From Oligoflexia bacterium (GTDB lineage: Bacteria; Bdellovibrionota; Bacteriovoracia; Bacteriovoracales; Bacteriovoracaceae), in NCBI GenBank assembly GCA_015232015.1, contig JADGAM010000001.1, positions 27,340-91,339 on the forward strand: DNA of 64,000 nucleotides, in the 5' to 3' direction. Each line of letters begins with the position of its first letter. Position 1 is the stretch's first letter. Shown here one piece after another: positions 1-64,000 of the stretch. The notes below the pieces were generated by a model. The model was not told the origin of the DNA. It made no database searches and saw only the letters and a program-made list of their open reading frames with translations. The position numbers and the translations under genes were made by a program.

Positions 1-531
1 AATGCAAACACAAGTACAACTACCGCCAGTGCTACGGAATTTTCACATTGTGTGCTTAATCCTCCAAAATATAATTTTAAGAATAAGTTAATTGGTTCCT
101 TTAATGTTTGCCAAAGTAGTGATAAGAGCACTAAAAAAATTATTTTTCAAAATAAAGCTAATATTAGAGACTACAAACTATGTTTTTATCCAATTAATAT
201 TAGCACTAATTCAAATGCTAATTTTGAGTCAAAATCAGTAATGATCGGTGATGAAAAATGTATTTACCCAGTAGTAGCAGAAAAAGTCTTTGAAATAGAA
301 TTTACTATTAATAGAGAGGGATTTACTGATAAAACCTTTAATGGAGTTATGATTATTAAAGATATGCCTTACGGAGAAGTAACTCCATATCACAATAATA
401 TGAAAGAGGTCGAACCAACTTATGTTATAGCTTACAAGGATTGTATGAAGTATCTTGATAAAACAGGTGACGATGTAGCATGCAAGCGTTTCTTGAATAA
501 AAAACAATATATCTTAATTTCATTTTTATAA
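1..531 (+). CDS. Unknown protein, 5-prime end outside window
   Basis: The frame is open from base 1 to the TAA at 529-531, so the start lies upstream; the first in-window start-like codon is GTG at 52. The visible 176 residues begin with a Thr/Ser/Ala-rich stretch and then form a moderately hydrophilic domain with at least six cysteines, suggesting an exported, disulfide-containing domain. No membrane segment is visible. The end lies only 7 bases before the O-antigen ligase start, so the two are probably co-transcribed. I do not recognise the family. Confidence 0.7.
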   Translation, partial: NANTSTTTASATEFSHCVLNPPKYNFKNKLIGSFNVCQSSDKSTKKIIFQNKANIRDYKLCFYPINISTNSNANFESKSVMIGDEKCIYPVVAEKVFEIEFTINREGFTDKTFNGVMIIKDMPYGEVTPYHNNMKEVEPTYVIAYKDCMKYLDKTGDDVACKRFLNKKQYILISFL

Positions 532-11145: not shown

Positions 11146-12570
11146 ATGGATGTAGTGCTTTTATCGAGAATTCAATTTGCAATGACTATCGGTTTTCACT
11201 ACATCTTTCCACCTCTTTCAATAGGTCTTGCTTGGATTATTTTTTTCTTTTTAAGCTCATACATTCGCACTAAAGATAATTTTTATTTAGTCATATCAAA
11301 ATTTTGGATAAAATTATTTTCAATTACCTTTGCTATGGGAGTGGCCACTGGAATAACTATGGAATTTCAGTTTGGAACCAATTGGGCCAACTATTCTCGT
11401 TTTGTTGGAGATATTTTTGGAGCACCTCTGGCGGCAGAGGGAATATTTGCCTTTTTTTTAGAATCTAGTTTTCTAGGTGTTTTGTTATACGGGGAAAATA
11501 AGATTTCAAAGAATGTTTATTGCTTTTCCTCATTAATGGTGGCCATTGGTTCAACTCTTTCTGCGTTCTGGATTATAGTTGCAAATTCATGGCAACAGAC
11601 TCCTGCAGGTTTTGAAATAGTTAATGGACGGGCACAGTTAGTAGATTTTATGGCCGCTGTATTCAATCCATCCACTATACCTCGTTATTTTCATACTATT
11701 TCGGCGGCCTTAATCACAGGTGGTTTTTTTGTTATGGGAATATCTGCATACCATTTATTAAAATATAAAAGTGAATCAAATACAAATCAAAACACCAACA
11801 CCAACACAAATCAAAATTCAAGTGTAAATTACAATTATAATTGTGCTAAAAAGTCTTTGAAGGTTGGAATTATATTTGCAGTAATATCTAGTTTTATGAT
11901 TTTATTTTTTGGCCATATTCATGCAGTACAAGTAGCACAAACTCAACCAGCAAAATTAGCGGCCTTTGAAGGATTATGGGAGAGCAAAAAACGTGCTCCT
12001 CTACTATTATTTGGTATTCCAAATGAAGAAAATGAACGTACTGATTTTGAAATATCTATCCCGGGACTTCTAAGCCTTTTAGTCGGAAATGATTTGGAGA
12101 CCAAGGTTACTGGTCTAAAAGATATCGCTTTGGATGAACGACCTCCTGTTAAAATTTCATTTTTTACTTTTCACTTAATGGTGGGACTGGGTTTTTATTT
12201 TATTTCAATTTCACTTATTAGTTTTTATATATTTTATTTTAGAGAAGAAAATAAAAGTAATTTTCTTGTTAATTTTTTTGTTGAGAAAGGTGTTGATAAT
12301 TTAATTTTAAAAATACTTTTCTTTTCTATCCCTCTGCCATTTATTGCCAATGAACTTGGGTGGATGAGTGCAGAGATTGGAAGGCAACCTTGGATAGTTT
12401 ATGGAATTTTAAAAACTAGCAAAGGGATATCAGAAAATATTCCTTCATCCCATATAATTTTTTCAATTATTTTATTTGCAATTATTTACTTACTTATTTT
12501 TGTTTTATGGATTTTTTTGCTCAAACAAAAAATTCATAATTCATATGAAAGTAGAAATGAGAAAGCATGA
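11146..12570 (+). CDS. cydA: Cytochrome bd ubiquinol oxidase subunit I
   Basis: 474 residues. The N-terminus LSRIQFAMTIGFHYIFPPLS carries the haem-ligand histidine (about residue 19). Further marks are GTNWANYSRFVGDIFG, SWQQTPAGF, FHTISAALITGGFF with the second ligand region, and GWMSAEIGRQPWIVYG near the C-terminus. The protein is the short-Q-loop type. An Asn/Thr/Gln-rich insert (about residues 209-228) lies in a cytoplasmic loop and looks like microsatellite expansion. Together with CydB it oxidises quinol and reduces oxygen with high affinity in the inner membrane. GGAGG precedes the ATG; cydB overlaps by four bases. Confidence 0.96.
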   Translation: MDVVLLSRIQFAMTIGFHYIFPPLSIGLAWIIFFFLSSYIRTKDNFYLVISKFWIKLFSITFAMGVATGITMEFQFGTNWANYSRFVGDIFGAPLAAEGIFAFFLESSFLGVLLYGENKISKNVYCFSSLMVAIGSTLSAFWIIVANSWQQTPAGFEIVNGRAQLVDFMAAVFNPSTIPRYFHTISAALITGGFFVMGISAYHLLKYKSESNTNQNTNTNTNQNSSVNYNYNCAKKSLKVGIIFAVISSFMILFFGHIHAVQVAQTQPAKLAAFEGLWESKKRAPLLLFGIPNEENERTDFEISIPGLLSLLVGNDLETKVTGLKDIALDERPPVKISFFTFHLMVGLGFYFISISLISFYIFYFREENKSNFLVNFFVEKGVDNLILKILFFSIPLPFIANELGWMSAEIGRQPWIVYGILKTSKGISENIPSSHIIFSIILFAIIYLLIFVLWIFLLKQKIHNSYESRNEKA

Positions 12571-25804: not shown

Positions 25805-28459
25805 TCAATTGTTTAAATTTTTATAAACAATTTCATAAACATTTTTTGAAAGAGTTGAGCTAATTAATTTAGTTAATTGTAAGTGGATTAATTCCCGCCT
25901 GTTTTGTTCAAGCCTTTTGTAGTTATTAAATACGCGAATAATAGCAGAAGAGAGCATTGGATTATTTTTGTCAATTTCAAGAACTAGAGAAGTCAAGAAT
26001 TGATAATTCAAATCTGCTTGATGAATATCTTTATGATGAAATGTAACATGATTATTACTCCAAGTTGATATTAATGCTCTTGTAATATTGGGAACTAAAA
26101 TATTAAACTTTGGATCTTTCATCAAGATTTTTACTCTATCAGTAGTATCTGAAAGATCAGAGCTTGCTTGGACAGTAAACCATTTTAATAGAGTAAGTTG
26201 GTCTTCTTTAAAAAGATCATAGAAAAATTGATAAGCATGAAATCTATCTTCCGTATTAATGTTTGATAATTCAATCATAGCGTATAATCTATCAGTCATA
26301 TTGGTGGCATCGTAGAATTGTTTAGTACAAAGCTTGATCTTATTTGCATCTGGATTTGTATAAAGACCAGCATCGATCATTAAATAATGAAGGGCCACAT
26401 TTTTTAATGCTCTCTGAGAAGCAGAGTATTTATTAAGAATATCCTTACTATTTTTTAAAGTATCATTTAATTTATGATAGATTTCTTCAAATTTATTATA
26501 ATAAGTTTTACTTAATTCTCTTTCAAGGAATTGTCGTGCTTGATAAATTAAATGATAGTCAATAAGATTTAAATCATTTGTAATGATAGAAATAGTAGGT
26601 ACTGTTAGAATCATCGATTTGAAAGTGTTATCTAATAATTGATCATCAAGCAATCTTCCGTAAGCGCGCAAATAACCTTCATGTAACTTAAGTTCAATAT
26701 TATTTTTTTGATCGCTCATTAGATCTTTGATTATTCTAATGGTAAGCGTTTGCATGGCCTCAAAGCGATTAAAAGCATCAGAATCGTTTGCCATTAAAAA
26801 AATCAATTCATCGGTTGAGTAGGGTATATTTAATTTTATAGGTGCTGAAAAGCCTCTATTAATGGAAGGAATTACTTTGCTCTTGATGTTTTTAAATACA
26901 AAAGAATTCTCTTCAGAATTTAAAGATAATATTTTTGAGTGCTTCTTATCCTCAGTTCCATTTTCATCGATTAATCCAATAGCAAGAGGAATTAAAAGTG
27001 GTCCTTTTTTATCATCATCTTTGGTTTGTTGTTTCGTTTTTATAGTGAAAGTTTGTTTTTGCTCATCATAATGATAGTCAATTGTTACTGTTGGAGTTCC
27101 TGCTCTCTCATACCAAAGCTTAAATTGTGATAAGTTGATATTGGATGCTTTTTCCATGGCAAAAATAAAATCTTCAGTGGTGACTGCTTTGCCATCAAAA
27201 AGTTCAAAGTATTTTGTGATTCCCTTTTTGAAATTATCCATTCCAATAAGTGTGGCAATCATTCTGATAACTTCGGCACCTTTGTTGTAAACAGTGGCGG
27301 TGTAAAAATTATTTATCTCAATATAAGAAGGTGGTCTTATAGGATGAGACATGGGACCCGCATCTTCTGCAAATTGGGAGGTACGCAAATCTTTCACGTT
27401 GGAGATTCGCTTCTCAGAGCGAGAGTTTAAATCACTAGAAAATTCTTGATCTCTAAAAACTGTCAGGCCCTCTTTAAGAGTTAATTGAAACCAATCTCTA
27501 CATGTTACACGATTCCCTGTCCAATTATGAAAATATTCATGACCAATAACCGATTCAATGCCTAAAAAATCTTGATCAGTAGCAGTTTTAACATCAGCAA
27601 GTACATACTTGCTGTTAAAAATATTAAGACCTTTATTTTCCATTGCACCCATATTGAATGAGTCTACTGCAACTATCATATAAATGGATAAGTCATACTC
27701 CAGTCCAAATACCTCCTCATCCCAGCTCATGGCCCGCTTTAGTGCCTCCATTGCAGAATAACAGCGAGATTCATTACCCTTGTCACAATAGATTCTCAAA
27801 TCAATATTTTTATTTGAACGAGAGATATATCGATCTTTAATGATGCCTAAATCGCCGGCCACTAAAGCAAAAAGATAGCAAGGTTTTGGGAAGGGATCTT
27901 TCCACGTCACATAATGACGGTGGCCATCGTTTATATCACCCTTGGCCACTTGATTACCATTGGAGAGTAGAATTGGATAAAGCTCTTTGTTAGCAATAAT
28001 CATAGTAGTAAAACTAGACATGATATCAGGGCGATCAATAAAGTAGGTAATCTTTCTCATTCCTTCTGGTTCATTTTGAGTACAAAAAATATTTCCTGAT
28101 TTATATAATCCTTCCAAAGTTTTATTATTGCTGGGATCTATTTCTGTAATTGTTTCTAAAATAAATTTCGATTTATTTAAGGGTAGATTTTTGCTATCAA
28201 TAATTAATTTTTCATTATCAATTTTATATTTACTCTCATTTAATTTTTTACCATTGAGAGATATTTTCTGTAGTTTAAGATTTTGCCCGTTAAGAATTAA
28301 AGGCCTATTGTTTTTATTATTTTTTACAATCTTTAATCTTGCATGTACTAATGTTTTATTTTCATCTAGTTCAAAACACAAATCAACTTTGGGAATAAGA
28401 TACTCTGGTGGTTTATAGTCTTTTAAGTAAATAGATTGAGGATTTGAAATATTATCCAT
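25805..28459 (-). CDS. pepN: Aminopeptidase N (M1 metallopeptidase)
   Basis: 884 residues from the ATG at 28459, which has AAAGGAG at good spacing; a 26-residue upstream extension in frame would overlap the neighbour and is not family-like. The exopeptidase motif GAMEN (near residue 273) and the zinc site HEYFHNWTGNRV...LKEGLT (near 305-330) are intact. The N-terminal NEPEGMRKITYFIDRPD, and the length close to that of E. coli PepN (870), place it in the PepN branch. It releases N-terminal amino acids from peptides in the cytoplasm. Confidence 0.95.
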   Translation of the reverse strand: MDNISNPQSIYLKDYKPPEYLIPKVDLCFELDENKTLVHARLKIVKNNKNNRPLILNGQNLKLQKISLNGKKLNESKYKIDNEKLIIDSKNLPLNKSKFILETITEIDPSNNKTLEGLYKSGNIFCTQNEPEGMRKITYFIDRPDIMSSFTTMIIANKELYPILLSNGNQVAKGDINDGHRHYVTWKDPFPKPCYLFALVAGDLGIIKDRYISRSNKNIDLRIYCDKGNESRCYSAMEALKRAMSWDEEVFGLEYDLSIYMIVAVDSFNMGAMENKGLNIFNSKYVLADVKTATDQDFLGIESVIGHEYFHNWTGNRVTCRDWFQLTLKEGLTVFRDQEFSSDLNSRSEKRISNVKDLRTSQFAEDAGPMSHPIRPPSYIEINNFYTATVYNKGAEVIRMIATLIGMDNFKKGITKYFELFDGKAVTTEDFIFAMEKASNINLSQFKLWYERAGTPTVTIDYHYDEQKQTFTIKTKQQTKDDDKKGPLLIPLAIGLIDENGTEDKKHSKILSLNSEENSFVFKNIKSKVIPSINRGFSAPIKLNIPYSTDELIFLMANDSDAFNRFEAMQTLTIRIIKDLMSDQKNNIELKLHEGYLRAYGRLLDDQLLDNTFKSMILTVPTISIITNDLNLIDYHLIYQARQFLERELSKTYYNKFEEIYHKLNDTLKNSKDILNKYSASQRALKNVALHYLMIDAGLYTNPDANKIKLCTKQFYDATNMTDRLYAMIELSNINTEDRFHAYQFFYDLFKEDQLTLLKWFTVQASSDLSDTTDRVKILMKDPKFNILVPNITRALISTWSNNHVTFHHKDIHQADLNYQFLTSLVLEIDKNNPMLSSAIIRVFNNYKRLEQNRRELIHLQLTKLISSTLSKNVYEIVYKNLNN

Positions 28460-62231: not shown

Positions 62232-63434
62232 TTAATTATATTTTTCCACTAAACCAATCCAATATTTTGCGACAATGGACATAATTTCATCAGTAGGAAC
62301 GAAGTAAGGATTATGGAGAGCAAATTCACCTCCCACTCCTAATTTAATCATATGACCAGGAATTTTTTGTAAAAAATATGCAAAATCCTCACCTCCAAGA
62401 CTGGCGGCCAATGGGTAATGAATTTTTTTATCAGGGAAAAGTTCACTAACTAACTCTAAACAAAAATTAGTTTCTTTAGGGGTATTAATCATTGCTGGAT
62501 AACCATAATGAAAATCAAGTTCGATTTTACTATCAAATGTATTAGCAACTCCGTTTATTATTTGATTAATTTTTTCTATCAGCTTATTTTGAGTTTCAGT
62601 AGATAAAGTTCTTAATGTACCGGTGATTGTAACATCTTCAGGAATTATATTATGAGTTGTACCTGAATGAATTTGAGTTATCGACAATACAGCTGGGGAT
62701 AAGGGATCATTCATTCTACTAATTATATTTTGTAGTGCCAGAATCAGGTGAGAAGCAGTTATAATTGGATCTTTTGTCTTATGAGGAAAAGCACCGTGAC
62801 CTCCATAACCTTTAATTTTTATTGTAAACATATCACTGTTGGCCATCGCCGATCCTTCAGTTATTCCCCATTCTCCATAAGGTAGATCGGGCCAAATGTG
62901 AAGTGCAAATATAGCATCGATACTTATTTTAGAGAGTAATCCCTCTTCAATCATTAATTTAGCTCCGTAAAACCCCTCTTCTCCTGGTTGAAAGATAAAC
63001 ACTACTTTACCAAAAAAATTCTTATGTTCGTTTAAGTATTTTGCAGCTCCAAGAAGTGATGCCATATGTATATCATGTGCACATGCGTGCATTGTGTTTT
63101 CATAGATAGATTTATAAGGCATACCCTTTTTGTCTAGAGGAGAAGCTTTTTCTTTCAATGGAAGTGCGTCCATATCTGCTCGTAAAGCGATAGTTTTTTG
63201 TTTTGTTGAATTTTTGTTTTTGCTATTACCTTCGATAACGGCCACTACTGCTGTTTTTGCATATCCCAGATATATCTCATCAATCTTTGCTTCTTCTTTT
63301 AAAACTTTATAAATATACTCTGAAGTTACTTTTTCATTTAACCCTATTTCAGGATGTGAATGGAGAAAATGTCTCCATTCACACATTTTTTCTATTAAGT
63401 TATGATTTAACTCGATATGAAATAAATTTTTCAT
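62232..63434 (-). CDS. M20-family amidohydrolase (hippurate/N-acyl-amino acid hydrolase type)
   Basis: 400 residues. WRHFLHSHPEIGLNE at the N-terminus; ALRADMDALPL; MHACAHDIHMASLLGAAKYL with the metal His/Asp; IFQPGEEGFYGAKLMIEEGL with the catalytic Glu pair; then FALHIWPDLPYG and GYGGHGAFPH (dimerisation domain). A complete M20D enzyme that cleaves N-acyl groups from amino acids in the cytoplasm using two metal ions. AAAGGA precedes the ATG. Exact substrate unknown. Confidence 0.93.
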   Translation of the reverse strand: MKNLFHIELNHNLIEKMCEWRHFLHSHPEIGLNEKVTSEYIYKVLKEEAKIDEIYLGYAKTAVVAVIEGNSKNKNSTKQKTIALRADMDALPLKEKASPLDKKGMPYKSIYENTMHACAHDIHMASLLGAAKYLNEHKNFFGKVVFIFQPGEEGFYGAKLMIEEGLLSKISIDAIFALHIWPDLPYGEWGITEGSAMANSDMFTIKIKGYGGHGAFPHKTKDPIITASHLILALQNIISRMNDPLSPAVLSITQIHSGTTHNIIPEDVTITGTLRTLSTETQNKLIEKINQIINGVANTFDSKIELDFHYGYPAMINTPKETNFCLELVSELFPDKKIHYPLAASLGGEDFAYFLQKIPGHMIKLGVGGEFALHNPYFVPTDEIMSIVAKYWIGLVEKYN

Positions 63435-63560: not shown

Positions 63561-63947
63561 TTAATTAGATAGCTTACTTTTAAGCATGTTCTCTAAATCA
63601 TTAAGAAAATTTTTTTCATTTTCATTATTATTAGAGTGTAAAATTTCTTTGTTGTTTTTGTTATTATAATTTTCTAGCATACGCTCTATGAAATTTATTA
63701 ATTGATCTGCAACAAATGGTTTTGACATATAATTGACTTTTTTTATTGTTCCTTGATATTGAGTTTCCTCTAAGTATCCACTTAATACTAAAATATGTTC
63801 TGGATGTAACTCCTTAGATAATTGAGAAATATTTTCTAACATGCGAAGTCCGTTCATGAGGGGCATATTAAGATCAGTTATCACCAGACAATAATTTTTT
63901 TCTTTTATTAAATTTAGTGCTTCAATAGATGACCTTAGTGATAGAAA
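63561..63947 (-). pseudogene. Response-regulator receiver domain, 5-prime truncated
   Basis: The frame is open from 63947 down to the stop at 63561, with only a GTG (63884) as internal start. It shows the C-terminal two thirds of a REC domain: EALNLIKEKNYCLVITDLNM (phospho-acceptor Asp), then PLMNG, ILVLSG (Thr/Ser position) and YMSKPF (conserved Lys). The N-terminal beta strand and acidic pair are absent. The chain ends in an Asn/Lys-rich tail. Upstream of about 63935 the opposite strand codes for something else, so the gene is cut. Confidence 0.7.
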
Positions 63948-64000
63948 TTATACAACTAAATTTAGTGGCACCTCTGCTTCTACTCCAATTGTTGCAGGTA
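63895..64000 (+). pseudogene. Subtilisin-like (S8) protease fragment reaching the window edge
   Basis: The frame is open from a TAA at 63892-63894 to the window end and reads DDLSDRNYTTKFSGTSASTP followed by IVAG. GTSxxxPxxxG is the catalytic-Ser motif of S8 peptidases. No start codon or N-terminal protease domain precedes it, because the bases before about 63930 belong to the response-regulator fragment on the other strand. The rest of the gene is beyond the window. Confidence 0.6.

Follow-up and report, generated by a model that had tools for sequence, protein, structure and literature searches.

Gene fragments at the end of contig C111

The window analyzed here is a stretch of 64,000 nucleotides, positions 27340 to 91339 of contig C111 in the draft assembly G000 (413 contigs, 4.9 Mb, 84.7% complete), and its base 64000 is also the final base of this 91,339-bp contig. 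Toward that end an intact gene for an M20-family peptidase/amidohydrolase is followed on the same strand by a single-domain response regulator gene, of which only the 3' part is present, and then, head to head with the latter, by a scrap of a subtilase gene (Table 1).

The minus-strand open frame running from approximately 63944 down to 63561 was found to match the Pfam Response_reg family (PF00072). It resembles the receiver (REC) domain in that profile positions 30 to 110 of 111 are matched but differs from it in lacking positions 1 to 29, which were lost at what is argued below to be a chimeric join. Relative to the 170-amino-acid ortholog of a same-genus genome (G001), to which the remaining part is 61% identical, approximately 48 residues are missing from the start of the whole protein. 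The loss of approximately 40 N-terminal residues from a minus-strand REC domain, proposed in a preliminary description of this DNA, therefore stands, at ~29 domain positions and ~48 residues of the protein.

On the plus strand, the last 70 bases encode DLSDRNYTTKFSGTSASTPIVAG, which matched positions 229 to 248 of 288 of the Peptidase_S8 profile (PF00082), around the catalytic serine, with a score of 19.1 bits that lies just below the 21.8 cut-off for this very short piece. The scrap thus resembles the subtilase family S8 in its catalytic-serine region but differs in comprising only ~23 residues, as the contig ends there; its 3' end is likewise missing because C111 stops at base 64000. The peptide was 81% identical to the subtilase of G001 in protein comparison, in agreement with the earlier reading of this piece as an S8 protease carrying GTSASTPIVAG and lacking its N-terminal part.

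Table 1. Features of the contig end, of the corresponding region in the same-genus genome G001, and of other contig ends in assembly G000 (window positions unless a contig is named)
Feature	Location	Strand	Evidence or remarks
M20-family peptidase/amidohydrolase gene, intact	62232-63434	-	Pfam Peptidase_M20, E = 4e-38; 72% DNA identity to G001:C15:9544-10764
Response regulator gene, single-domain, 3' part	63561-63930	-	REC without N-terminal third; PF00072 positions 30-110 of 111
Chimeric junction, best interval	63924-63930		Direct homology to G001 stops at ~63923; inverted homology from ~63930
Subtilase gene scrap, inverted, ending with the contig	63931-64000	+	GTSASTPIVAG motif; 63937-63998 inverted versus G001:C15:14139-14078 (62 bp, 84% DNA identity, E = 7e-13); PF00082 E = 0.00087
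M20 peptidase	G001:C15:9544-10764	Same as other five genes of row	
Response regulator, 170 aa	G001:C15:10861-11373	Same as row	
HD-domain protein	G001:C15:11413-12747	Same as row	
Small protein	G001:C15:12852-13433	Same as row	
Subtilase with P-domain	G001:C15:13423-15057	Same as row	
M18 aminopeptidase	G001:C15:15144-16505	Same as row	
Flush inverted copy, 42 bp	G000:C12 left end, 1-42		
Flush inverted copy, 93 bp	G000:C37 right end, 11288-11380		
Flush inverted copy, 87 bp	G000:C39 left end, 1-87		

Gene order in a same-genus relative

The comparison was made with G001 alone, a genome of the same genus but of another species with ~72% DNA identity, whose gene order serves here as a proxy. 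The M20 peptidase and response regulator genes of the window were collinear with contig C15 of G001 at 72% DNA identity up to approximately 63923, the M20 gene being the last gene collinear with G001 before the broken response regulator gene. Base-by-base comparison bounded the junction to ~7 bp, which narrows the break previously placed at 63920 to 63940, and the native flanks that should lie beyond it on both sides were absent from the assembly. In G001 the response regulator and subtilase genes share a strand and are ~2.9 kb apart; the inverted match of the scrap to the G001 subtilase therefore indicates that the second segment belongs ~2.9 kb further along and has been flipped.

The small-protein gene lying between the HD-domain and subtilase genes of G001 had no Pfam match and overlaps the adjoining subtilase gene by 11 bp. 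A paralogous subtilase (C111:11626-13269) is also present on C111 itself, with an open frame of 562 amino acids and 46% identity to the G001 subtilase, and its same-strand neighbor, within C111:11626-13930, is related to the G001 small protein (32%). The sequences of this region suggest that C111 has a duplicated pair of protease and partner genes. Judging from the recurrent pairing with a subtilase, the small protein may function as a chaperone or as an inhibitor of the propeptide-like kind. As a donor of the scrap, the paralog was rejected, since its peptide identity to the scrap was 67%, compared with 81% for the G001 subtilase.

Search for the displaced sequences

The contig runs only ~70 bp past the break before reaching a dead end, and a DNA search with its last 80 bases found no second copy in the assembly. 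The 5' halves missing from the two genes, which the preliminary description had proposed to look for elsewhere in the assembly, were sought with both DNA and protein searches, and neither was found there; response regulators encountered elsewhere in the assembly were rejected as the missing half because they were unrelated. With the response regulator, HD-domain, small, and subtilase proteins of G001 as queries, the assembly yielded paralogs but, besides the contig end, no orthologs of the HD-domain, small-protein, and subtilase genes; the paralogs had 28 to 30% identity for the HD-domain protein and, for the subtilase, included the one described above. Nor did the assembly contain any match to the M18 aminopeptidase or to the gene that follows it in G001. 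Most likely, the true sequence continues in an assembly gap that begins directly past the end of C111.

These searches bear on the possibility that the chromosome itself is rearranged. A real inversion of ~2.9 kb, with breakpoints in the response regulator and subtilase genes and both genes disrupted in the strain, would account for the observed geometry, as flipping the segment between the two sites places the C-terminal part of the response regulator next to an outward-facing subtilase. It should, however, also bring the small-protein and HD-domain genes onto the plus strand and create a reciprocal junction elsewhere, yet neither that junction nor the genes of the inverted segment were found in the assembly (84.7% complete), and C111 dead-ends ~70 bp past the junction. 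Moreover, the junction showed no repeat able to mediate an inversion; within the final 10 kb of C111, the tail had only chance matches of 8 to 12 bp and no other copy. We therefore regard a real inversion as very improbable. Slightly less probable still is the stricter proposal of a recent true 2.9-kb inversion that joined the genes for the response regulator and a secreted subtilase head to head, inactivating both.

Inverted copies at other contig ends

A total of 59 whole contigs, providing 118 ends, were scanned for inverted copies of their own sequence, with 4,720 internal pseudo-ends as the control. Flush exact inverted copies of sequence lying 250 to 440 bp inward on the same contig were present at 3 of the 118 ends (Table 1). 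Among the pseudo-ends, 7 of 4,720 had a flush inverted match of at least 15 bp and none had one longer than 37 bp, giving a Fisher P value of 0.0015 for real ends versus pseudo-ends and of 1e-5 for matches of at least 42 bp. The rate obtained is a lower bound, as the self-scan detects only snap-backs onto a contig's own interior and jumps beyond the contig end are invisible to it. The ends of C12, C37, and C39 are snap-backs of this kind, whereas the end of C111 is a downstream jump; they are likely to be further chimeric ends.

At two contig ends, exact direct overlaps of 127 bp were observed, which are typical of a de Bruijn graph assembly with k = 127. Such overlaps are compatible with the junction being a pure assembler error or a chimera of library preparation (foldback or ligation) formed without whole-genome amplification, and other library chemistries are also described, in PMC13141652, as yielding inverted foldback reads. 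Against this origin, the junction has no repeat liable to misguide a de Bruijn assembler, and an inverted jump of 2.9 kb is more in keeping with multiple displacement amplification (MDA) than with ligation or short hairpins. We consider this origin unlikely; it is itself a sub-case of the artifact verdict, so that the modest weight given to it overlaps with our confidence in that verdict.

Proposed origin of the junction

The preliminary description had left the head-to-head join as either a natural event (inversion or deletion) or an artifact. The artifact is favored because only ~70 bp separate the junction from the dead end of C111, because the second segment is inverted and originates ~2.9 kb downstream in G001, which is the dominant geometry of MDA chimeras, because the correct continuation was not found in the assembly, and because inverted snap-back copies occur at other contig ends of this assembly. 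We conclude with high confidence that the junction arose in vitro as a chimera, most likely from MDA, and was retained at the contig end, and infer that the two segments were joined by MDA rather than during library preparation or by the assembler.

In the proposed mechanism, a growing strand passing through the response regulator gene would have been displaced near 63924 to 63930, and its end would have reannealed to a displaced strand ~2.9 kb downstream, within the subtilase gene. Copying backward from the subtilase site would then have joined the two genes head to head. With true reads missing at this point, the assembler would have followed the chimeric read or reads for ~70 bp and then stopped. 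The real chromosome would carry a complete response regulator gene, with the HD-domain gene, the small gene, and a complete subtilase gene upstream of it on the same strand. The true gene order here is thus presumed to be that of G001, and the organism probably has both genes, response regulator and subtilase, intact.

It follows that the end of C111 should be trimmed before annotation and that pseudogene status should not be assigned to the response regulator. Caution is also needed with the assembly as a whole, since at least the ends of C12, C37, and C39 carry similar inverted scraps that are to be trimmed.

Comparison with chimeras of multiple displacement amplification

In MDA of a single Escherichia coli cell, inverted joins made up 406 of 475 chimeras, and in 337 of them the distance between the segments was below 10 kb (Lasken and Stockwell 2007, PMC1855051). 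Inverted chimeras were attributed in that study to a displaced 3' end that reprimes on a nearby displaced 5' strand. Short complementarity of 2 to 21 nt at the junction is a criterion for inverted chimeras of the MDA type. The end of C111 resembles the inverted chimera with an intervening deletion described there (PMC1855051) in several respects: its second segment is likewise inverted, its segments are likewise less than 10 kb apart (~2.9 kb on the map of a related species), its junction is likewise devoid of a long shared repeat, and inverted joins likewise recur within the assembly, at 3 of 118 contig ends.
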